Shown: positions 3,380 through 57,015 of the stretch, in pieces | Layout of the letters: each line of letters opens with the position of its first letter | Numbering within the stretch: position 1 is the stretch's first letter | Assembly: GCF_041296385.1 (NCBI RefSeq) | Contig: NW_027184061.1 | Location: 1,364,001 to 1,428,000, forward strand | Direction: 5' to 3' | DNA length: 64,000 nt | Source: Aphelocoma coerulescens | Taxonomy: Eukaryota > Chordata > Aves > Passeriformes > Corvidae | The notes under the pieces: generated by a model | What the model was told of the DNA's origin: nothing | Seen by the model: the letters and a program-made list of their open reading frames with translations, nothing else | The model's database searches: none | Made by a program: the position numbers and the translations under genes

Positions 3380-5900
3380 CTATGGCACGTGAATATCCTG
3401 CATCCAAGGATCACAGGACAGGTCTTCTAATGAGGGCCTTTCCGAGGAGAGCACGGATAAACACCGTCGGATGAGATTCTGGCACTCTGTGGAGTGAAAG
3501 CAGAAAGCACCAGTCAGTTGCAGAAGGCTCCTGTCCGCTTTGCCCCACTCTTGCCATGGCCAGGCCGTGCTGCGTGTGCTCAGGGCTGTGCCTAAACTTT
3601 GCCATCAATTCTTTCTTTTGGAGGAGAGCAGGAGAGCAGGACATTGCCACCTCCTCAGCAGCTGCCAGTGTGGGATGCTCCTGAGCCCGCTGCTGTCTCC
3701 CAGCACTGCTATTCCCCCCGTGCTGCAGAGACGAGGATCCACCTGGAGAGAGCCGTCGTGGGAGCGAGAGCCGGCCCCAGGTGCTGTTCCAGCCCCTCCT
3801 GAAAGGGTGCTCCCCGCAGACCATCTGGTGCAGCACGATGCCCAGGGACCAGACGGTCGCTGCCTCGCCGTAGTACCAGCCGAACTGGGTCCATTCCGGG
3901 GGGCTGTAGGATGGTGTTCCTATGGAATAGAGATGGAGTTCTTCAGGGGGACGCTGCCTGCTCCCAGAGCCTCGCCCCAGCATCCCTGGGCATGCGGGGG
4001 CCGCAGCAGCGGCACGCGGCGTGACCCGCTGCCCTCTGGCCAGCACCTGGGACTTGTGTACAAACTGGGGGTTGGAAAAGAAGCCGCTGGTGTTGCAAGA
4101 GGGCAGCGGAAGCCCTGGCAAGGCCCGAGCATTCCATGCAAAGGAAAAACCCACTTGGTGCTGGGGAAAAACCACGCTTTCATCCTCCCTGCCTGCACTG
4201 CCCCAGAAACCATTCTTAAGCCAAGGCAACCATGGGCAGCAGAGCAGTCCGAGCCCTGTCTCGCCTGCACACCAAACGGGCTGGAGCACAGGTTCTGGCC
4301 TCCCCTCTCTGCTACCCCCACCCACGGGTGTGTCTGTGGCGCTGGCTGCCCCAGCCCCAGCGCCAGTCCTGGGCAGAGTGGCTGGTGAAGGCTGCCAGCA
4401 GGGCTGGAAGATGGCCCCTCAGCCAGCGCCGCTCAAAAGCAGCTCAGCTGAAGACTCCGGCTGCCATGACTGGCAGCAAAAGGGAGAATCCCCCCCTGCC
4501 ACAGCCGGCTTGGGCTTGAGATGTTGGGCTCTGAGACGCTGGGCCGTGAGATGTTGGGCCGTGAGATGTTGGGCTGTGAGATGCCGCTACCAGGAGCCTC
4601 CCCCTGCGTGGGCTCACCTGCAAAGCTGGTGTAGGCTGCGGCTTGCAGGTAGGTGCCACAGCCAAAGTCGATGAGTTTGGCCTGCCCGGTGGCCAGGTCG
4701 ACCAGGATGTTCTCCGGTTTGATGTCCCGGTGCAGGACCCCGCAGCTGGTGCAGTGCCGCACGGCCTCCAGCACCTGGCGGAACAGGTGCCGCGCCACCT
4801 CCTCGCACAGGAAGCCCCGTGCCCAAATGAAGCGAAGGAGGTCCTGACACCGCTCCGGGCGCTCCAGCACCATCAGCACGTTGTTGGGGAGCTCCAGCCA
4901 CTCGTGGAGCTGGACGATGCCAGGGAAGCCAGCGGACACCTTGTCCAGCAGCACGATCTCCAGTGGTGCTCGGGTGCCGTCGGGCTGCGGGAGGAGCACG
5001 GTGCCGTCAGCGGGGCTGATGCCGTGCCGGGGCTCGGGAAGCCCTCAGCCAGCCGGGGACGCTCTGCGCGCTCCGCTGGCCCCACGGCCGCTCTCCCTCG
5101 AGGCGTTCTGGCGGCTTCCACCCTGCCGGGCCTCGGCTCATCCCCGCCCGTCGCGCCCCGGCTTCTCCCGCTGCCCCTCGCTCACTCACCAGCTCGCCCC
5201 AATGGCCGATGCGGTTCCGCGGCACCCGTTTGATGGCCACCTGCAAGGCAAGGGGAGCAGCGGGCTGAGCTCGCCGCCCGCCGTGCCCAGCCGCATGCTC
5301 CTTCTCCTCCTCCTTTGCCCCCCGCCTCCTGCGCCCGCCGCCGGCCCCGCCACTCACCGGCGCGCCGTCCGAGAGCCGCGTGGCCGCGAAGACGCTGCCG
5401 AAGCCGCCGCGCCCCAGCAGCGAACCCAGCCGGTAGCGCTCCTTCAGGCCCTGCTGCGCCTTCCGTGCCCGCGAGACGCGGCCGTCAGCGCTCGGCCCGG
5501 GGCCAGGAACGGCCCCCGAGCGCCGCTCAACCGCCCCGGGCCGGCCATCCGCACATGGGGGCTCTTTTGGAGGGGCCACCGGCGGCTCGGGGCCGGCGGC
5601 CGCGCTCAAGAGCGGCGGAGCTCGGAGCGGGGAAGACGCTGCGGAGGCGGCGGGAGCGGCCGCGCCGCCTGTGTCCCCGGCGGGCCCCGGGAGGAGCCGA
5701 GGCCGGGGCCGGGGTCGGGGTCGAGGTCGGGCCAGCCGGAGCCAGGGGCTGGCGATGGTGCCCAGGAGCCAGGCACTGATGCCCGCCCAGCAGCGCCACA
5801 GCCAGGACGGCGAGAGCCGGGCGGAGGCGGGACCGCGGCGGGACGCCCGGGGGCGGGGAGGGGGCAGCCCCGCCCGGGGCCGGGGGCGGGCCGGGGGCAT
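3380..5900 (-). CDS. PIM1L: PIM1-like serine/threonine kinase, unit A (5 exons)
   Basis: This is a complete kinase gene. Exons on the minus strand are 5900-5358, 5240-5190, 4984-4618, 3919-3743 and 3486-3380; GT/AG sites and phases fit, giving 414 residues. The N-terminus is Arg/Pro-rich with a hydrophobic tryptophan-rich stretch at about residues 29-56, then Ala/Pro-rich sequence. Kinase motifs are intact: GRGGFG at 163-168, VAIK lysine 185, Glu207, the PIM-type hinge ERPE at 239-242, HRD at 283-285, DFG at 304-306 and SPPEW after the activation loop. The last exon has the PIM C-terminal signature (ECQNLI, then [10 protein letters not shown] and stop). PIM kinases are constitutively active because they need no activation-loop phosphorylation; that is family knowledge. 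The start at 5900 is the first Met before the conserved exon and could be further upstream. An X/Y promoter-like module lies about 1.3 kb upstream. Confidence 0.9.
4518..4582. repeat. 15-bp tandem repeat in PIM intron 3
   Basis: About four units of a tgagatgttgggctg-like 15-mer sit just inside the intron after exon 3. Unit B has about two units at the same place (near 42,532-42,570), so copy number changed after duplication. Confidence 0.8.
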
Positions 5901-7160
5901 GGCCCGGCCGGGCCTGGGGAGAGGGAGGCCGCGGGAGGGGGGGTTGGGGAACCAAAGGGAGAGCGGGAGAGGGTGCGAGACACTGGGAGAGGGAGAGGAG
6001 GAGCAGGAGAAGGGACGCAGAGGGTTCGTAGACTCGCTGCTTTTGCGCTGCTGCCGCTGCTGCCGCTGCTGCCGCTGCTGCCGCTGAAGCGCTGGGAGCG
6101 TTTGTCCGCGTGTCCGTGTGTCCGGTGCCCGTGTGTCCGTTCCCCCCCGCGCGCCCCACGGCCGAGCCCCGCGCGCCCCGGGGCAGCACGGGCCGCTCCG
6201 CTCCGGGGCCGAGGCGGAGTCCCGGAGCATCTCTTCCTCCCGCAGCCGCACCAAACCCGCTCGGCCATTGGCAGCAGTTTTGCACACGTTTCCCTTTGAA
6301 GGGCTCCTCTCTACCCCCATTTCCAAGGAGTCTCCCTGCGGTTTTGGCACCTGCAGCGACAGGGCAGCGACTGAGCTTCAAACTGCAAGAAAGACATGGA
6401 GGGGCTGGAGCACGTCCAGAGATGGGATTGGAGCTGGGGAAGGCTCTGGAGGACTTCTGAGGGGCAGCTGAGGGATCTGAGGGCGCTGAGCCTGGAGGAA
6501 AGGAGGCTCAGGGGGGACCTGGCTCTCTCCAAGTCCCTGACAGGAGGGGGCAGCCAGGAGGGGTGGGGCTCTGCTGCCAAGGGAAAGCACGAGAGGAAAT
6601 GGCCTCGGGGGAACTCTTGGGGTGGATGGTGGGGAAATTCTCATCCTCCGTGTCTCGACAAAGGGGGAGGGGGGCAGGGGTGGGGCACGACCTGGGGAGA
6701 CGGGGGTGGTGACGCTGGGCTGGGGACACGGGAAAGGGCACGGGAAGCCAAAGCCCCGCTGAGCGCTGGCGCTGGGCTGGCACGGGGTGAGCCGGCAGCA
6801 GGGCCCCGCAGCCCTGAGGGACTCGCCCTGACGGCCGGGGAGTATTGATCCTGGTCTCTAAAACATGAGACTCAATAAAATATCATTAAAAGATGCCTCC
6901 TTCTCCTTCTCCTCCTCTCCCATCCCTTCTCATGCTCCCCCCGGGCCCAGCGCCCACCCTTGGCCCCCCGTTCTCCCAGCGCGGCCGCATCCCGCGGGAG
7001 GAGCCGGGATGGAGCCGGGACAGGTCGGGCTGGGGCAGCGCAGGGCTCTGGGCCCGGCCTGGGCGCCCCCCACGCGCCCCCTCCCCAAATTCCCCTGGCG
7101 GGGGGCGCTGGGGGCGAGGGGGGGGGCGCAGGTGGGGTCCGGGTGGGGAGCGCTGAGCGC
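5901..7160. other. PIM 5' flank, GC-rich
   Basis: This is the upstream flank of the PIM1-like gene. It includes a short imperfect gctgctgcc repeat near 6,047-6,087 and GC-rich sequence typical of a promoter. An AATAAA on the plus strand at about 6,875 follows a 150-codon plus-strand ORF, which I do not accept as a gene (see rejected items). The unit B counterpart is 43,880-45,270. Confidence 0.5.
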
Positions 7161-10929: not shown

Positions 10930-12890
10930 TCACTGAGGAGGTTTTGGGGCACCCTCCTGCAGGAACTCAAGATTTTCAATCATGGCACCATCCATACGCC
11001 TTTCCCAACCCGCTTGCCATAGCAGTCTCTGTGTGGGTTTCAAAAAGATTTCTGCCAGCTTTCTACAGTCAAACGGAGTCATTAAACCACTCGTAAAAAT
11101 ATGGTGCAACAAAGTTTGCACGTACGGGTTGGTTAATCCATACTGCATCCCAGCTTTTTCTCCTTTTCGGATGAGCTTCCAATTGAGCCCCGCCCACTGG
11201 CGTTGGTTCGGATTACTGGGGGCAGCAATTCCCGGGAACGCTTGTGAAATAAATTCACCCTCAATCAAAGCCTCCCGTATGATTCCCTGCCACCGCCGAG
11301 CAGGTTTGTCGGAAGCAGGGCGGCTTGGGGAGCCGTGGGCAGGACTTTCTTTTTTCCGCTCCGCCCTTTGAGCCGGGGGATCAGTCGTTCTTCGCATTCC
11401 CCGGCTCCGCTCCAGCTTTTGCCCCGGTTGGAATTTCCCCGCATCCCCTTCTCGCTCCCACGGTTTTCCCCCTTCTCTGTTCGCCAAACTGTTTCCTCGG
11501 CAGGAGTCACAGGGCGGACGGACCCCCACCGGGGCCACCCCCCCGGGGAGCCGGGCCCGCGATCCCCGCGGCCAACGCGGACCGAAGACTCGGCACCGCG
11601 ACACACATTCAGCAGCTGATTCAGGATTCTCTCTCCCCTCCGCCACCAGCAGCGGTTTCTGCTTTTCTCTTTCTTTCTCCTGCCGCTTGTGTTCTCAAAG
11701 CGGCTCAATCGCTCTGCCTTTGAACACCCGCCGTTCGCATTGGAATCCCCGCTCTGGCTAAGCCGCGGTGAGGCAGACGGCGATGGGGGTAGCGGGGGAC
11801 ACACACGCCCCCCCAGTGCTAAAGTTAACTCTTCGGGGGACACCACGGGACACCTCCTAGGCAGTTCTGGTGCTTGCGGAGAGGGAGCTCATCCACTTCC
11901 ATTTTCTCTGGTTCTGGCGCGGGCTGCGGAGCCTGTAACTCCGTCTCCGCGGGTGCAGAAGGCAGGGACGGTATAACTGGGTCTACTCCCCCAAAGAATT
12001 CTCGGGCGTACGTCGGAAAGGCAGCCGCGGGACGGCCTGGCTCTAGATGGGCTGCTGCCCCTACCGCAGCTGTTTTTTCTGCCTCTATTTGCCTCAGCGC
12101 CGTTATTATTAACTTCCATAGCGTACTAAGCCCCTTAGTCTCTTTTAATCCATTGCTTACGGCGTCCCAGAGAGTGATTCCCAGCCTTTCCCACTCAAGA
12201 GTGCTGAGAACGCTCCCGTTGGTGGCAAAAAATCCTCTCTCCCAATCCCATCTTAACAGTCTTTTCAAGACCTCCGGGTCATGCTTCTCTCAAAGAGAAT
12301 ATGCTGGAGGACCCTGAACATGGCCTGCTCCTCTTTTGACAGACCCTTCCCCATCCTCCAGCCCCTGGCCTCTCACCTCTTCGGGTGCACCCGCTGCAGC
12401 GTACGTTTTCCGGACTTCTTTCCCCAGGAGCTTTCTTCGGCTCCCCCAACTCCAATGGAGCCGTTCTCCGACTCTCCCCTCCACGGTCCAGCCGTGGCAG
12501 GCTCTGACCGGGGCCTCCCGCCTTTTCACTCCACAGACCCCCTTCAGAATCCAAAGGGTCCGGTCTGCTTCATTATCGCAGCGTTTATCACGTCGCGAGG
12601 TCACCAGCATGCGGGAGCTCAGGACTTCTGAACAACAAAGCAATATGATTCCGCAGAAGACATTTTATTGTTTCCATTGCACTCTGCTTATGCATTTTGC
12701 AACTGCTGTGCACGTGATCACGCACTTCTTGATTGGTCCCTCGATTTCGTCCACGCGTTCTGCACGCAGTTTTCAGAAAACAGGATTGGTTCTAGTCCAG
12801 TGTGGCACAGTCCTTCTTCATCTATTTCTCGCTGCCTTGGTATTCTGCTTCTCAGCTTCTTCTTTCCCATGAGAGTCCCTTCATTTCCCC
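10930..12890 (-). pseudogene. Class II-like ERV remnant: LTR, primer site, broken gag (unit A)
   Basis: Read on the minus strand, an LTR-like segment (about 12,890-12,610, poly(A) signal at 12,669-12,664) ends in CA. After a TGC comes a candidate primer-binding site at 12,606-12,589 beginning TGGTGACC and ending ACGTGAT, close to the 3' end of tRNA-Trp. Gag follows in broken frames: a matrix-like part (12,268-11,825, motif LKRLLRWDWERGFF-like) and a capsid N-terminal part (about 11,340-10,930) with the motifs NWKLIRKGEKAGMQYG, TPFDCRKLAE and LLWQAGWE. Pol, env and the far LTR are absent. The frame changes between matrix and capsid mark it as defective. The position 12,346-12,351 (cttccc) is the unfilled insertion site of the unit B element. 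Confidence 0.7.
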
Positions 12891-16040: not shown

Positions 16041-17690
<1,650 letters not shown>

Positions 17691-37050: not shown

Positions 37051-37840
37051 AGAAAGGGAAGGGGAAGGGGAAGGGGAAGGGGAAGGGGAAGGGGAAGGGG
37101 AAGGGGAAGGGGAAGGGGAAGGGGAAGGGGAAGGGGAAGGGGAAGGGGAAGGGGAAGGGGAAGGGGAAGGGGAAGGGGAAGGGGAGGGGAGGGGAAGGGG
37201 AGGGGAGGGGAGGGGAGGGGAGGGGAGGGGAGGGGAGGGGAGGGGAGGGGAGGGGAGGGGAGGGGAGGGGAGGGGAGGGGAGGGGAGGGGAGGGAAGGGA
37301 AGGGAAGGGAAGGGAAGGGAAGGGAAGGGAAGGGAAGGGAAGGGAAGGGAAGGGAAGGGAAGGGAAGGGAAGGGAAGGGAAGGGAAGGGAAGGGAAGGGA
37401 AGGGAAGGGAAGGGAAGGGAAGGGAAGGGAAGGGAAGGGAAGGGAAGGGAAGGGAAGGGAAGGGAAGGGAAGGGAAGGGAAGGGAAGGGAAGGGAAGGGA
37501 AGGGAAGGGAAGGGAAGGGAAGGGAAGGGAAGGGAAGGGAAGGGAAGGGAAGGGAAGGAAAGGAAAGGAAAGGAAAGGAAAGGAAAGGAAAGGAAAGGAA
37601 AGGAAAGGAAAGGAAAGGAAAGGAAAGGAAAGGAAAGGAAAGGAAAGGAAAGGAAAGGAAAGGAAAGGAAAGGAAAGGAAAGGAAAGGAAAGGAAAGGAA
37701 AGGAAAGGAAAGAAAAGAAAAGAAAAGAAAAGAAAAGAAAAGAAAAGAAAAGAAAAGAAAAGAAAAGAAAAGAAAAGAAAAGAAAAGAAAAGAAAAGAAA
37801 AGAAAAGAAAAGAAAAGAAAAGAAAAGAAAAGAGAAAGAA
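37051..37840. repeat. Graded all-purine satellite
   Basis: About 780 bp of pure G/A on the plus strand, in successive blocks: GGGGAA hexamers (about 37,057-37,181), GGGGA pentamers (to about 37,291), GGGAA (to about 37,555), GGAAA (to about 37,711) and GAAAA (to about 37,833). G content falls stepwise from left to right. All frames are open on both strands simply because of the repeat. Confidence 0.97.
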
Positions 37841-41394: not shown

Positions 41395-43879
41395 CTACGG
41401 CACGCGAATATCCTGCATCCAGGGATCACAGGACAGGTCTTCTAATGAGGGCCTTTCCGAGGACAGCACGGATAAGCACCATCGAATGAGATTCTGGCAC
41501 TCTGCGGAGTGAAAGCAGAAAGCACCAGTCAGTTGCAGAAGGCTCCTGTCCGCTTTGCCCCACTCTTGCCATGGCCAGGCCGTGCTGCGTGTGCTCAGGG
41601 CTGTGCCTAAACTTTGCCATCAATTCTTTCTTTTGGAGGAGAGCAGGAGAGCAGGACATTGCCACCTCCTCAGCAGCTGCCAGTGTGGGATGCTCCTGAG
41701 CCCTCTGCTGTCTCCCAGCACTGCTATTCCCCCCGTGCTGCAGAGACGAGGATCCACCTGGAGAGAGCCGTCGTGGGAGCGAGAGCCGGCCCCAGGTGCT
41801 GTTCCAGCCCCTCCTGAAAGGGTGCTCCCCGCAGACCATCTGGTGCAGCACGATGCCCAGGGACCAGACGGTCGCTGCCTCGCCGTAGTACCAGCCGAAC
41901 TGGGTCCATTCCGGGGGGCTGTAGGATGGTGTTCCTATGGAATAGAGATGGAGTTCTTCAGGGGGACGCTGCCTGCTCCCAGAGCCTCGCCCCAGCGTCC
42001 CTGGGCATGCGGGGGCCGCAGCAGTGGCACGCGGCGTGACCCGCTGCCCTCTGGCCAGCACCTGGGACTTGTGTACAAACTGGGGGTTGGAAAAGAAGCC
42101 GCTGGTGTCACAAGAGGGCAGCGGAAGCCCTGGCAAGGCCCGAGCATTCCATGCAAAGGAAAAACCCACTTGGTGCTGGGGAAAAACCACGCTTTCATCC
42201 TCCCTGCCTGCACTGCCCCAGAAACCATTCTTAAGCCAAGGCAACCACGGGCAGCAGAGCAGTCCGAGCCCTGTCTCGCCTGCACACCAAACGGGCTGGA
42301 GCACAGGTTCTGGCCCCCCCTCTCTGCTACCCCCACCCACCGGTGTTTCTGTGGCACTGGCTGCCCCAGCCCCAGCGCCAGTCCTGGGCAGAGTGGCTGG
42401 CGAAGGCTGCCAGCAGGGCTGGAAGATGGCCCCTCAGCCAGCGCCGCTCAAAAGCAGCTCAGCTGAAGACTCCGGCTGCCATGACTGGCAGCAAAAGGGA
42501 GAATCCCCCCTGCCACAGCCAGCTTGGGCTGTGAGATGTTGGGCTGTGAGATGTTGGGCTGTGAGATGCTGCTACCAGGAGCCTCCCCCTGCATGGGCTC
42601 ACCTGCAAAGCTGGTGTAGGCTGCGGCTTGCAGGTAGGTGCCACAGCCAAAGTCGATGAGTTTGGCCTGCCCGGTGGCCAGGTCAACCAGGATGTTCTCC
42701 AGTTTGATGTCCTGGTGCAGGACCCCGCAGCTGGTGCAGTGCCGCACGGCCTCCAGCACCTGGCGGAACAGGTGCCGCGCCACCTCCTCGCACAGGAAGC
42801 CCCGTGCCCGAATGAAGTGAAGGAGGTCCTGACACCGCTCCGGGCGCTCCAGCACCATCAGCACGTTGCTGGGGAGCTCCAGCCACTCGTGGAGCTGGAC
42901 GATGCCAGGGAAGCCAGCGGACACCTTGTCCAGCAGCACGATCTCCAGTGGTGCTCGGGTGCCGTCGGGCTGCGGGAGGAGCACGGTGCCGTCAGCGGGG
43001 CTGATGCCGTGCCGGGGCTCGGGAAGCCCTCAGCCAGCCGGGGACGCTCTGCGCGCTCCGCTGGCCCCACGGCCGCTCTCCCTCGAGGCGTTCTGGCGGC
43101 TTCCACCCTGCCGGGCCTCGGCTCATCCCCGCCCGTCGCGCCCCGGCTTCTCCCGCTGCCCCTCGCTCACTCACCAGCTCGCCCCAATGGCCGATGCGGT
43201 TCCGCGGCACCCATTTGATGGCCACCTGCAAGGCAAGGGGAGCAGCGGGCTGAGCTCGCCGCCCGCCGTGCCCAGCCGCATGCTCCTTCTCCTCCTCCTT
43301 TGCCCCCCGCCTCCTGCGCCCGCCGCCGGCCCCGCCACTCACCGGGGCGCCGTCCGAGAGCCGCGTGGCCGCGAAGACGCTGCCGAAGCCGCCGCGCCCC
43401 AGCAGCGAACCCAGCCGGTAGCGCTCCTTCAGGCCCTGCTGCGCCTTCCGTGCCCGCGAGACGCGGCCGTCAGCGCTCGGCCCGGGGCCAGGAACGGCCC
43501 CCGAGCGCCGCTCAACCGCCCCGGGCCGGCCATCCGCACATGGGGGCTCTTTTGGAGGGGCCACCGGCGGCTCGGGGCCGGCGGCCGCGCTCAAGAGCGG
43601 CGGAGCTCGGAGCGGGGAAGACGCTGCGGAGGCGGCGGGAGCGGCCGCGCCGCCTGTGTCCCCGGCGGGCCCCGGGAGGAGCCGAGGCCGGGGCCGGGGT
43701 CGGGGTCGGGCCAGCCGGAGCCAGGGGCTGGCGATGGTGCCCAGGAGCCAGGCACTGATGCCCGCCCAGCAGCGCCACAGCCAGGACGGCGAGAGCCGGG
43801 CGGAGGCGGGACCGCGGCGGGACGCCCGGGGGCGGGGAGGGGGCAGCCCCGCCCGGGGCCGGGGGCGGGCCGGGGGCAT
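41395..43879 (-). CDS. PIM1L: PIM1-like serine/threonine kinase, unit B (5 exons, HQD variant)
   Basis: Exons on the minus strand are 43879-43343, 43225-43175, 42969-42603, 41934-41758 and 41501-41395, with splice sites and phases as in unit A. The product is 412 residues, two fewer because of a shorter Arg-Pro repeat in exon 1. The G-loop, VAIK lysine, hinge ERPE and DFG are intact. The catalytic loop reads [11 protein letters not shown] instead of [11 protein letters not shown]: the HRD arginine is Gln282, while the catalytic Asp283 and Lys285 are kept. VAIK is followed by W instead of R. The frame is fully open, so this is either a functional variant or a recently inactivated enzyme. PIM kinases do not depend on activation-loop phosphorylation, so loss of this Arg may be tolerated; that is inference. 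Confidence 0.88.
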
Positions 43880-44876
43880 GGCCCGGCCGGGCCTGGGCAG
43901 AGGGAGGCCGCGGGAGGGGGGGTTGGGGAACCAAAGGGAGAGCGGGAGAGGGTGCGAGACACTGGGAGAGGGAGAGGAGGAGCAGGAGAAGGGACGCAGA
44001 GGGTTCGTAGACTCTCTGCTTTTGCGCTGCTGCCGCTGCTGCCGCTGCTGCCGCTGCTGCCGCTGAAGCGCTGGGAGCGTTTGTCCGCGTGTCCGTGTGT
44101 CCGGTGCCCGTGTGTCCGTTCCCCCCCGCGCGCCCCACGGCCGAGCCCCGCGCGCCCCGGGGCAGCACGGGCCGCTCCGCTCCGGGGCTGAGGCGGAGTC
44201 CCGGAGCATCTCTTGCTCCCGCAGCCACACCAAACCCGCTCGGCCATTGGCAGCAGTTTTGCACACGTTTCCCTTTGAAGGGCTCCTCTCTACCCCCATT
44301 TCCAAGGAGTCTCCCTGCGGTTTTGGCACCTGCAGCAACAGGGCAGCGATTGGGCTTCAAACTTCAAGAATGGCATGGAGGGGTTGGAGCACGTCCAGAG
44401 ATGGGAATGGAGCTGGGGAAGGCTCTGGAGGACTTCTGAGGGGCAGCTGAGGGATCTGAGGGCGCTGAGCCTGGAGGAAAGGAGGCTCAGGGGGGACCTG
44501 GCTCTCCCCAAGTCCCTGCCAGGAGGGGGCAGCCAGGAGGGGTGGGGCTCTGCTCCCAAGGGAAAGCACGAGAGGAAATGGGCTCGGGGGAACTCTTGGG
44601 GTGGATGGTGGGGAAATTCTCATCCTCCGTGTCTCGATAAAGGGGGAGGGGGGCAGGGGTGGGGCACGACCTGGGGACACGGGGGTGGTGACACTGGGCT
44701 GGGGACACGGGAAAGGGCACGGGAAGCCAAAGCCCCGCTGAGCGCTGGCGCTGGGCTGGCACGGGGTGAGCCGGCAGCAGGGCCCCGCAGCCCTGAGGGA
44801 CTCGCCCTGACGGCCGGGGAGTATTGATCCTGGTCTCTAAAACATGAGACTCAATAAAATATCATTAAAATATGCC
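43880..44876. other. PIM 5' flank, unit B
   Basis: Counterpart of 5,901-6,890, GC-rich and without a recognised gene. The plus-strand ORF of 150 codons is present here too and is rejected as coding. Confidence 0.5.
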
Positions 44877-45022
44877 TCCTTCTCCTTCTCCTTCTCCTTC
44901 TCCTTCTCCTTCTCCTTCTCCTTCTCCTTCTCCTTCTCCTTCTCCTTCTCCTTCTCCTTCTCCTTCTCCTTCTCCTTCTCCTTCTCCTTCTCCTTCTCCT
45001 TCTCCTTCTCCTTCTCCTTCTC
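44877..45022. repeat. (TTCTCC)n expansion, unit B only
   Basis: About 24 perfect hexamer units. Unit A has only two to three at 6,892-6,915. The array lies about 260 bp upstream of the X/Y module. Confidence 0.97.
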
Positions 45023-45279
45023 CTCCTCTCCCATCCCTCCTCCTGCTCCCCCCGGTCCCAGCGCCCACCCTTGGCCCCCCGTTTTCCCAGCGCGGTCGCA
45101 TCCCGCGGGAGGAGCCGGGACGGAGCCGGGACAGGTCGGGCTGGGGCAGCGCTGGGCTCTGGGCCCGGCCTGGGCTCCCCCCACGCGCCCCCTCCCCAAA
45201 TTCCCCTGGCGGGGGGCGCTGGGGGCGAGGGGGGGCGCAGGTGGGGCCCGGGTGGGGAGCGCTGAGCGCTGCGGGTCTG

Positions 45280-49539: not shown

Positions 49540-50961
49540 TCACTGAGGAGGTTTTGGGGCACCCTCCTGCAGGAACTCAAGATTTTCAATCATGGCACCA
49601 TCCATACGCCTTTCCCAACCCGCTTGCCATAGCAGTCTCTGTGTGGGTTTCAAAAAGATTTCTGCCAGCTTTCTACAGTCAAACGGAGTCATTAAACCAC
49701 TCGTAAAAATATGGTGCAACAAAGTTTGCACGTACGGGTTGGTTAATCCATACTGCATCCCAGCTTTTTCTCCTTTTCGGATGAGCTTCCAATTGAGCCC
49801 CGCCCACTGGCGTTGGTTCGGATTACTGGGGGCAGCAATTCCCGGGAACGCTTGTGAAATAAATTCACCCTCAATCAAAGCCTCCCGTATGATTCCCTGC
49901 CACCGCCGAGCAGGTTTGTCGGAAGCAGGGCGGCTTGGGGAGCCGTGGGCAGGACTTTCTTTTTTCCGCTCCGGCCTTTGAGCCGGGGGATCAGTCGTTC
50001 TTCGCATTCCCCGGCTCTGCTCGAGCTTTTGCCCCGGTTGGAATTTCCCCGCATCCCCTTCTCGCTCCCGCGGTTTTCCCCCTTCTCTGTTCGCCAAACT
50101 GTTTCCTCGGCAGGAGTCACAGGGCGGACGGACCCCCACCGGGGCCACCCCCCCGGGGAGCCGGGCCCGCGATCCCCGTGGCCAATGCGGACCGAAGACT
50201 CGGCACCGCGACACACATTCAGCAGCTGATTCAGGATTCTCTCTCCCCTCCGCCACCAGCAGCGGTTTCTGCTTTTCTCTTTCTTTCTCCTGCCGCTTGT
50301 GTTCTCAAAGCGGCTCAATCGCTCTGCCTTTGAACACCCGCCGTTCGCATTGGAATCCCCGCTCTGGCTAAGCCGCGGTGAGGCAGACGGCGATGGGGGC
50401 AGCGGGGGACACACACGCCCCCCCAGTGCTAAAGTTAACTCTTCGGGGGACACCATGGGACACCTCCTAGGCAGTTCTGGTGCTTGCGGAGAGGGAGCTC
50501 ATCCACTTCCATTTTCTCTGGTTCTGGCGCAGGCTGCGGAGCCTGTAACTCCGTCTCTGCGGGTGCAGAAGGCAGGGACGGTATAACTGGGTCTACTCCC
50601 CCAAAGAATTCTTGTGCTTACGTGGGAAAGGCAGCCGCGGGACGGCCTGGCTCTAGACGGGCTGCTGCCCCTACCGCAGCTGTTTTTTCTGCCTCTATTT
50701 GCCTCAGCGCCGTTATTATTAACTTCCATAGCGTACTAAGCCCCTTAGTCTCTTTTAATCCATTGCTTACGGCATCCCAGAGAGTGATTCCCAGCCTTTC
50801 CCACTCAAGAGTGCTGAGAACGCTCCCGTTGGTGGCAAAAAATCCTCTCTCCCAACCCCATCTTAACAGTCTTTTCAAGACCTCCGGGTCACGCTTCTCT
50901 TAAAGAGAATATGCTGGAGGACCCTGAACATGGCCTGCTCCTCTTTCGACAGACCCTTCCC
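49540..50961 (-). pseudogene. Class II-like ERV gag remnant, unit B, 3' part
   Basis: Counterpart of 10,930-12,351 with the same capsid and matrix motifs and the same frame breaks. It is interrupted at 50,961 by the cold-shock LTR element. Confidence 0.7.
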
Positions 50962-51234
50962 TGTTGGGGTCTCCTCCCCCCGCCATGTAGCCCTGAGGGA
51001 GGCACGGGGTTTCCCTGCCCCTGGTCAGCCTCGTTCCCCATTGGTTGGTTTGTGTTCCCCTGCGCGGGCAAAGCAGCTCGGGTGCTGACTGCAGCAGTCT
51101 CTCGGCAGAGCCCGGCCATGCGGCTGGGGAAATAAACATCTCTGAAACATCTAGCAAGAATCCGTCCGTATATATTTCTTTTCCACAGGACTCCTGGTTT
51201 GATATAGGCGTGTTGCAGTATCCCCACTGCAACA
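50962..51234 (+). repeat. 5' LTR of the cold-shock retroelement
   Basis: 273 bp, TG...CA ends. It contains AATAAA at 51,131-51,136 and an inverted CCAAT (ATTGG) at 51,040-51,044. No clear TATA box is seen. Confidence 0.95.
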
Positions 51235-51355
51235 TAATGGTAGAGAATTGAGGCCAGAACGATCCCCGATCCCTAAGCGACTGATTTATGTGAGTAAACC
51301 CTGGAAACTTTGGATTCCTCTTCTTGGTTTTGTTTCGCTATTCCATATCTGGACT

Positions 51356-52744
51356 ATGGAAGAATCGTGGGAAATGGGGCTCTCTGAGCCACAGAAAAAA
51401 ATGTATCTAGAAGTAAAAGGAATCCTTGAACAACAAAACAGAAAAGTATTGGAACCGGGAGATCTTGAACATCTTTTTATCTGGCTTTTCAAAGGGTTCC
51501 CCTGTATTTCTCGAGACTTACTTTTTGATATCGGACCTCCTGGATATTATCAGGAGTGTTACTGGAACGAGATCTGTGATAAGCTAAGGGATGGACGATC
51601 GATAGAAGCTGTCCGCGGATCCTATGTAATCAGTGACGCTCTTCAGAAGCATCTGTATGGTCCCATTACCCCTAAAGCAGAAGATCATACCTCTCCCGTG
51701 GCCGAGACCGCGTGGCAGCCATCCCGGGAGTGTATGACTGCAGCCATGCCAGCGGAGGTGCCTGTGCTGGATGTGCCCGGCCCCCTCGGGAGCGCGCGCC
51801 TTACCGCGGACCCCATCCCTGTCTCGGGGTCCCCGGCCACCCGACCGCGAGTGAGGGAGCGACGCCGCAGGCGCCACGGGTGCCGTAGGCCACGAGCAGC
51901 CAGGAACCGGAGGTCAGTGTGGAAGCCCGCTCTGAGCATACGGCTCGGAGAGCCCTGTGGAGGGAGAAGCGGTGGTTTCCACAGTGACACGAGAAGCCGC
52001 GCAGCGCAGCGCCGAGCCGAAACGAGGCCGCTCTCGAAGCAGCGTGGAGTTTGCGGAGCAGAGCCGCTCACGGGGTGTGGGGCCAGCGGCGATGGCAGCG
52101 CGGGGCCGCGCAGAGCCCAGACAGGCGCTGGAGCGGGGCCGCGCAGAGCCCAGACACGCACCGGAGCAGCGTCGTGCAGAGAGCGCAGAGCGGCCGCGGC
52201 GCGGGGGCCTGACCGAGACGTCGGAGTCGGCGAGGCGGCGGCCACGCGGGACCGGCACCCACGACAGACACGCAAGCACGTGATAGGAGACGTTCTAGCA
52301 ACGAAAGTCACAGGAACTGTGAAATGGTACAATGTAAAAAACAACTATGGATTTATAACACGAGATGATACAGGGGAAGATTTATTCATCCATAGAACTG
52401 CCATTAAAAGGAATAACCCTAAAAATTACCTGCAAAGTGTAGGAGATGGGGAAGTTGTTCAATTTTATATAGTTCAAGGAAAGAAGGGTTTACAAGCAGC
52501 GAATGTTACTGGGCCTGGAGGTATTCCCGTTAAAGGCAGCCGTTATGCACAAAATTATAAACAATATCCATTCCAGCAATTTCCCTACCCACAGCCTAAT
52601 TTCCCCTTTTACCCTATACCCAATATGAACCCTTTCCTAAGTTTACCCTATCCCCAGTTTATTCCTAATCCGTTTTTCACTCCATGGCTTCCTTATACAG
52701 TTCCATTTCCCTACAATTCCTCTCCGATGCCGATGGGGGGATGA
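51356..52744 (+). CDS. Gag matrix-like / Y-box cold-shock domain fusion protein
   Basis: An uninterrupted 462-codon ORF from the ATG at 51,356; the frame is open further upstream but without an earlier in-frame ATG. Residues 1 to about 105 look like a retroviral matrix domain, with the alternating pattern [13 protein letters not shown]...YWNEICDKL. Residues 106-312 are a GC-rich, Arg/Ala-rich linker with a repeated GPRRAQT motif. Residues 313-398 (52,292-52,549) are a cold-shock domain of the Y-box family, about 70% identical by eye to human YBX1 recalled from memory, with the RNA-contact motifs GTVKWYN, NYGFI and LFIHR. Residues 399-462 form a tail with 18 Pro and 17 aromatic residues in 64. 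It contains no capsid, zinc knuckle or enzyme. Cold-shock domains bind single-stranded RNA or DNA, so an RNA-binding, Gag-like role is plausible. Confidence 0.88.
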
Positions 52745-52956
52745 AAAGGGGGAGGGAAGAAACCCTCTCCTGCCTCAGTTTCCTCACAGGCATGTCCAGA
52801 GAGTTCTGTCTCCCTTCTGTCAGCCCTAAGATGTTCCACAGAATCTGTTTGGACATTTAAAGACTCAGGAGAGTGGCTTGTTTTGTTTTGAAACTGTTCT
52901 TGTTATGGTTATCCAGTTGTCTTCATTCTCCTTTTATTAAAATAAAACGGGTGAGA

Positions 52957-53228
52957 TGTTGGGGTCTCCTCCCCCGCCATGTAGCCCTGAGGGAGGCACG
53001 GGGTTTCCCTGCCCCTGGTCAGCCTCGTTCCCCATTGGTTGGTTTGTGTTCCCCTGCGCGGGCAAAGCAGCTCGGGTGCTGACTGCAGCAGTCTCTCGGC
53101 AGAGCCCGGCCATGCGGCTGGGGAAATAAACATCTCTGAAACATCTAGCAAGAATCCGTCCGTATATATTTCTTTTCCACGGGACTCCTGGTTTGATATA
53201 GGCGTGTTGCAGTATCCCCACTGCAACA
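52957..53228 (+). repeat. 3' LTR of the cold-shock retroelement
   Basis: 272 bp. It repeats the 5' LTR, including ATTGG at 53,034-53,038 and AATAAA at 53,125-53,130. Confidence 0.95.
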
Positions 53229-53760
53229 CTTCCCCATCCTCCAGCCCCCGGCCTCTCACCTCTTCGGGTGCACCCGCTGCAGCGTACGTTTTCCGGACTT
53301 CTTTCCCCAGGAGCTTTCTTCGGCTCCCCCAACTCCAACGGAGCCGTTCTCCGACTCTCCCCTCCACGGTCCAGCCGTGGCAGGCTCTGACCGGGGCCTC
53401 CCGCCTTTTCACTCCACAGACCCCCTTCAGAATCCAAAGGGTCCGGTCTGCTTCATTATCGCAGCGTTTATCACGTTGCGAGGTCACCAGCATGCGGGAG
53501 CTCAGGACTTCTGAACAACGAAGCAATATGATTCCGCAGAAGACATTTTATTGTTTCCATTGCACTCTGCTTATGCATTTTGCAGCTGCTGTGCATGTGA
53601 TCACGCACTTCTTGATTGGTCCCTCGATTTCGTCCACGCGTTCTGCACGCACTTTTCAGAAAACAGGATTGGTTCTAGTCCAGTGTGGCACAGTCCTTCT
53701 CCATCTATTTCTCGCTGCCTTGGTATTCTGCTTCTCAGCTTCTTCTTTCCCATGAGAGTC
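53229..53760 (-). pseudogene. Class II-like ERV remnant, unit B, LTR/leader part
   Basis: This continues the sequence interrupted at 50,961 and corresponds to 12,346-12,890. The primer-site candidate lies at 53,489-53,472 and starts TGGTGACC. The LTR-like part follows on its upstream side. Confidence 0.65.
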
Positions 53761-56057: not shown

Positions 56058-56268
56058 ACCAACCAAATCACAGGAGCACAAGGAGAAGGCAAAGAAATCT
56101 CTCCAACACCTTCCCCCCACCCAGCGCGGATCACCCGGAACGGGGGTCACCAGGGCTCTGCCCCACGGGGGTCACTGGGGATCATCCAACGCCGATCCTC
56201 CCACGGGGGATGGAGCTGGAGCAGCGCACGAAGCTCTTCCCGCACTCGGGGCACTCGCAGGGCTTCCC

Positions 56269-57015
<747 letters not shown>

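Follow-up and report, generated by a model that had tools for sequence, protein, structure and literature searches.

Most of what is known about the capture of host genes by retroviruses comes from transforming viruses, which are short-lived. The locus considered here raises the question of whether a captured host RNA-binding domain can instead persist under selection while its carrier is copied many times over and, if so, what such a domain might do. The locus lies in a stretch of 64,000 nucleotides of Florida scrub-jay (Aphelocoma coerulescens) DNA, referred to as the window, in which the initial annotation had described, at positions 50962..53228, an LTR retroelement carrying a host-type Y-box cold-shock domain (CSD).

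Structure of the window element

The element is bounded by LTRs of 273 and 272 nt (50962..51234 and 52957..53228, plus strand), which differ by one substitution and one indel. The 5′ LTR has TG...CA ends, with ATTGG at 51040 and AATAAA at 51131, and the pair is enclosed by a target-site duplication (TSD) of 6 bp, CTTCCC, at 50956..50961 and 53229..53234. The 1,722 nt between the LTRs contain one ORF of 462 amino acids. An empty, pre-insertion site is found at 12351..12352 in a tandem paralogue, and the flanks of the element, taken with one copy of the TSD, align end to end with 11891-12817 at 97.95% identity; the window element is thus a single clean insertion, and the paired LTRs and target duplication around a single ORF that had been annotated are confirmed. 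The tandem duplication itself is large, comprising 3-22414 and 38018-62743 of the window at an offset of about 38 kb, with blocks that are 90-98% identical, and the element is present in the second unit only.

Downstream of the 5′ LTR, and like it on the plus strand, there is a primer-binding site (51238..51255) that we take to be tRNA-Ala-like; 13 of its 18 positions agree with the 3′ end of that tRNA in the window copy, and two of the 35 copies compared agree with it at all 18. The ORF then encodes a matrix-like (MA-like) domain (aa 1-110, 51356..51685), an Arg-rich linker of Arg, Ala, Gly and Pro that is GC-rich (72%; aa 111-308, 51686..52279), an intronless piece with the Y-box-type CSD (aa 309-400, 52280..52555), and a Pro/Phe/Tyr-rich tail followed by the stop codon (aa 401-462, 52556..52744). 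A probable polypurine tract, A/G-rich and with little variation in 35 copies of subfamily A and 8 of subfamily B (see below), lies 5′ of the 3′ LTR at 52937..52956. A further polypurine run coincides with the stop codon (52743-52762), about 190 nt 5′ of the 3′ LTR, and may be left over from an earlier LTR border. No protease, reverse transcriptase or integrase is encoded, and Pfam gives the CSD alone for the 462-aa ORF.

The frame had been read as a matrix-like Gag N-terminus joined to a YBX-family CSD. The CSD is recognised by sequence, whereas the matrix assignment comes from fold and not from sequence: the fold modelled for the first domain is nearest to the MA proteins of RSV, MMTV and MPMV, and the domain is homologous in subfamily B (hhalign 97.5%). 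Neither Pfam nor PDB gave sequence evidence of MA, and a protein search with the region yielded two relatives among 44 candidates, both of them family members. Foldseek found no PDB or viral match to the model at E <=0.001 and no matrix protein among its 42 PDB rows; in the viral rows a Gag-pro-pol fragment came second (prob 0.82, E 1.0), and the gag-crk protein of CT10 was among the weak fold matches (prob 0.30, E 6).

Copies in the scrub-jay and relatives in other songbirds

A comparison of the 1,601-base interior with the jay genome gave 40 scored matches out of 2,058 candidates, the window included, at 88-100% identity, and all 40 are element copies in which nearly the whole query is covered (subfamily A). 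Two or more LTR matches were found at 39 of these loci and one at L007. Both LTRs are complete at 32 of the 40, and 29 of those 32 have a perfect 6-bp TSD; by hand count, these TSDs comprise 25 different 6-mers. Three pairs of loci (L001/L002, L010/L011 and L027/L028) have TSD and flank in common and were taken as segmental duplicates, with longer flanks compared for L001, the window copy, and L002, its duplicate, while L026 and L034 have the same 6-mer at different places. Divergence within LTR pairs is 0-3.9%, with a median of 1.1% and zero differences at seven loci, including L027 and L028. All three coding pieces are open in 27 of the 39 other A loci, a set that includes L002, L011 and L028, and, taken singly, the CSD plus tail is open in 37, the MA-like domain in 35 and the linker in 31; because the 40 loci are the best matches to the window element, these counts are biased towards young and intact copies.

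Subfamily B is represented by the crow protein P0006, which, searched over its whole 440 aa, gave 96 scored matches in the jay from 37,955 first-look candidates; 68 of the 96 contain no stop, as counted by hand from a table that does not show frameshifts. Eight B loci were examined, and all of them have LTRs of the window type (85.7-95.6% identity for complete matches), with the frame open from the start codon at six and perfect TSDs at five of the six that were testable. Many copies that share LTRs and the cold-shock ORF are thus found at unrelated sites in both subfamilies, as the initial annotation had anticipated for a true family. It had also named the outcome that would overturn it, namely that LTRs merely happened to flank a host YBX-like gene or retrocopy and that no other element copies carried it. 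Insertions with their own TSDs, the recurrent LTR-ORF-LTR layout and the empty site rule this out, and we regard it as virtually inconceivable. We consider it nearly certain, for family and structure jointly, that the window element is a young member of a family of non-autonomous LTR retroelements in songbirds, chiefly corvids, and that this family comprises subfamilies A (that of the window) and B.

The family can also be followed in protein databases. A protein search returned a full-length relative from A. coerulescens itself (87%) and, among the matches listed, nine proteins of the crow Corvus moneduloides, one of which is a cluster of 24; a profile search added three further crow proteins. 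The family clade of CSDs discussed below includes a partial protein from Mimus melanotis (P0178, Mimidae) and a contig-derived protein that ends in a tail of the family's type. In the gene model of P0005, from C. moneduloides, the CSD runs, by eye, into an R-U5 and leader like those of the window LTR, which suggests that the annotation fused parts of an element. P0123, from an ena contig, has three cold-shock domains; it was judged not to be a family member and was excluded from the tree. No relatives were found among 92 pattern stretches in viral contigs, and the phage DNA search gave no match. The family is numerous and has moved recently, and it supplies bird genomes with Y-box-like proteins that are listed as uncharacterised in the databases searched.

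Origin of the cold-shock domain and selection on the reading frame

The window CSD is 68-71% identical to the CSDs of YBX1, YBX2 and YBX3, and identity to these host CSDs across the 16 family rows is 56-79%. In a tree on 87 columns, these 16 rows form one clade beside and apart from YBX1/2/3, with support of 99/99. A tree of this kind had been proposed for finding the donor; YBX1 is weakly favoured as the donor paralogue, and neither a grouping of the family with YBX2 (AU p 0.37) nor one with YBX3 (0.29) is rejected. The CSD of host YBX1 (contig C22) is interrupted by two introns, both with GT/AG borders, whereas the element has none and is continuous there, so that capture went by way of spliced RNA. 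Between element and host YBX1 (65 codons and three copies, with L045 and the beginning of the host CSD left out), dN is 0.21-0.27 and dS is saturated, and the capture is thus old. The likeness to the host proteins consists of CSD identity and common stacking residues. The flanks of the window CSD are unlike the YBX N-terminus or C-terminal repeats, neither of which was found, PDB and protein matches outside the family covering the CSD alone; moreover, the window CSD is intronless and lies between LTRs. Most simply, the CSD was captured once, before the split between A and B, from a spliced YBX-type mRNA. The earlier claim that a non-autonomous retroelement captured a host RNA-binding gene is supported.

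Selection on the frame was estimated within subfamily A from 37 rows (the window copy and L003-L040, minus L011 and L028). For the CSD, dN/dS is 0.20 (95% 0.09-0.45, codon bootstrap) and hence below 1, as the initial annotation had expected of a family; it rises to 0.36 (0.18-0.71) in the tail, 0.62 (0.46-0.85) in the linker and 0.79 (0.48-1.42) in the MA-like domain, where constraint is weak at most. Between A and seven B copies (the eight loci minus L042), the CSD has dN of 0.185-0.199, dS of 0.91-1.15 and dN/dS of about 0.19, in support of the annotated view that the element lived with the domain before this insertion. Among CSD variants common to at least three copies, 6 of 17 are nonsynonymous (about 76% under neutrality; p 0.0004), and among private variants, 17 of 29 (p 0.03); the contrast between the two groups is not significant (Fisher p 0.22). 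Both shared indels are in frame, and all seven private ones are frameshifts. Source lineages were selected while single copies decay, and it is in these lineages, which do the replicating, that purifying selection has preserved the CSD.

These figures also bear on whether the ORF is merely a passenger, open only because the insertions are young. The LTRs are indeed young by their median divergence, an open linker frame could have arisen by chance (P 0.03), and dN/dS in the MA-like domain is not below 1 with confidence. Nevertheless, for the CSD this is refuted by the ratios within A and, at dS of about 1, between subfamilies, and the restriction of shared indels to in-frame changes also argues against it, so that we consider it highly improbable; for the MA-like domain taken singly it may hold.

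PMC7226217 gives W65, F74, F85 and H87 as the stacking residues of the YB-1 CSD and states that K118 and K64 are needed for RNA binding. The nucleic-acid-contact residues are kept in the window copy, as annotated, with 12 of 12 listed contacts (simulation p 0.004), and the four stacking residues are present in all 16 family rows, an outcome that taken alone would not be unlikely (p 0.09-0.35 in six rows). There is no excess of kept contacts in P0012 (p 0.43) or P0178 (p 0.46), K118 is replaced by R in P0012 and by N in P0178, K64 by E in P0003, and E121 by Q in all 16 rows. Compared with the neutral expectation, the substitutions in P0001, P0004, P0006 and P0012 are milder (0 of 1000 each), those in P0122 marginally so (0.048) and those in P0178 not significantly so (p 0.12). 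The YB-1 motif CAUC is not enriched in the three segments analysed.

Probable movement in trans and the possible role of the captured domain

The 6-bp TSD and the paired TG...CA LTRs are features of class II (alpha/beta-like) LTR retroelements, and it is likely that the element was moved in trans by a class II endogenous retrovirus. In a tree of LTRs from 38 A and 8 B rows, the subfamilies are intermixed, with 8 changes against a shuffled mean of 7.6; the A rows include the window twice (WIN and L001), few forks are supported, and the use, for each copy, of the LTR closer to the window could add some mixing. That the LTRs are intermixed although CSD dS between subfamilies is near 1 suggests co-packaging. 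Furthermore, the crow protein P0004 is a mosaic, closest to B in its MA-like domain (90%) and left linker (74%) and to A in its right linker, CSD and tail (82%). Both observations fit template switching between co-packaged RNAs, from which we infer a shared helper.

Candidate helpers were sought with RVT_thumb, which we take to be a marker of class II pol. It was scored at 150 places in the jay, several of them in open frames of more than 900 codons, and the upstream pieces examined, at six of these 150 places, showed no related LTR or MA. Other ERV groups lie near RVT_thumb matches (L079, L082 and L083, and L080, L081 and L084); one of these groups has a frame with MGQRQAKPS and, at L083, a tRNA-Lys-like primer site (14/18). 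Many of the matches are on contigs C34-C38, and C34 (21 Mb) may be the W chromosome, according to PMC11631490.

We propose that the element RNA would be reverse transcribed and integrated in trans by the class II retrovirus, that the CSD could take the place of nucleocapsid by binding RNA of the element itself, and that the MA-like domain might bring the resulting RNP to the assembly site of the helper Gag. The captured CSD would thereby provide cis-preferential packaging and RNA protection. MMTV offers an analogy: according to PMC4486188, YB-1 joins its Gag in assembly, and fewer particles are produced when YB-1 is knocked down. A fusion of MA-like and Y-box domains could carry its RNA to the assembly site. 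Packaging or protection of RNA as the job of the CSD is plausible, though we hold it tentatively, and the whole explanation, averaged over family, movement in trans and CSD function, seems to us fairly probable and the best available. The kept stacking residues speak for the proposed role, while the outcome of the helper search at six places, the unenriched CAUC motifs, the weak constraint on the MA-like domain, the non-significant contrast of shared and private variants and the changes at K118, K64 and E121 speak against it.

Two other roles can be weighed against it. The captured CSD might act on expression, coating, stabilising or masking the element mRNA as germ-cell Y-box proteins do, or shielding it from small-RNA silencing, while packaging would depend on cis signals read by the helper Gag. 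The constraint on the CSD and the weak constraint on the MA-like domain are in line with this, as is the description of YB proteins as general mRNP proteins in PMC7226217. However, both subfamilies have retained an MA-type domain in fusion with the CSD and N-terminal to it; this speaks for a function tied to Gag, and we judge an expression role rather unlikely. Alternatively, the fusion could be a dominant-negative, Gag-like inhibitor of other retroviruses or of the helper, kept because carrier hosts or elements gain. Its truncated Gag-like architecture and the fast evolution of the MA-like domain (dN/dS with an upper bound of 1.42) would fit such an inhibitor, but what is under constraint is a large set of mobile source lineages and not a single fixed locus, and the family is numerous and recently mobile, so that we find this reading improbable. 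Returning to packaging, a stronger version would be a class of vertebrate retroelements in which the viral nucleocapsid has been replaced by a captured host Y-box protein, the MA-CSD fusion packaging its own RNA into the particles of another retrovirus and the family owing its high copy number in songbirds to this cis-encoded RNA chaperone; this is possible but doubtful.

Several known systems resemble the window element in part. In acute transforming retroviruses with Gag-oncogene fusions, such as the avian sarcoma virus CT10 with gag-crk, a Gag N-terminus is joined to host cDNA, pol and env are lost, the LTRs are kept and a helper is needed; these captures are recent, exogenous and oncogenic. 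The window element likewise has a part derived from host cDNA and no pol, its gag part being recognised by fold only, but its family is multi-copy and germline, with an RNA-binding cargo long held under purifying selection. Maize Bs1, chicken ENS-1/Soprano and the FAM8A1 transduction are non-autonomous LTR elements with captured or orphan ORFs and are also like the window element in having LTRs, no pol and non-pol sequence aboard; to our knowledge, none of them has a cold-shock domain or retained selection on a captured RNA-binding cargo. The betaretrovirus MMTV is similar in MA fold and in the tie between a Y-box protein and Gag assembly (PMC4486188); it uses host YB-1 in trans, whereas the window element encodes its Y-box domain in cis, fused to the MA-like domain. 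The form of the fusion echoes the host protein that is recruited by MMTV Gag, and the family offers a natural setting in which to test which tasks the packaging of retroviral RNA demands of an RNA chaperone.

The annotation had called the element unlike any described ERV family. In the literature searched, which did not extend to most subscription papers and repeat libraries, we found no LTR element described as carrying a cold-shock domain, and the repeats section of the jay assembly paper (PMC11631490) names no such family. The element is of a known kind, a non-autonomous LTR element with host cargo; what is new to us is that the cargo is a CSD, that it is fused to an MA-like domain and that selection has retained it for so long.

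Other features of the window were also noted. A pair of ORFs on the minus strand, at 5007-6320 and 42992-44299, read like the start of a serine/threonine kinase, and we take them to resemble the multi-copy pim-like kinases of birds. Arrays of a C2H2 zinc-finger-like 84-nt repeat are present in both duplicate units (16041-16949 on the minus strand, and 56230-56774), and long microsatellites (AAGGG/AGGAA, CTCCTT) occupy 37054-37838 and 44876-45028.
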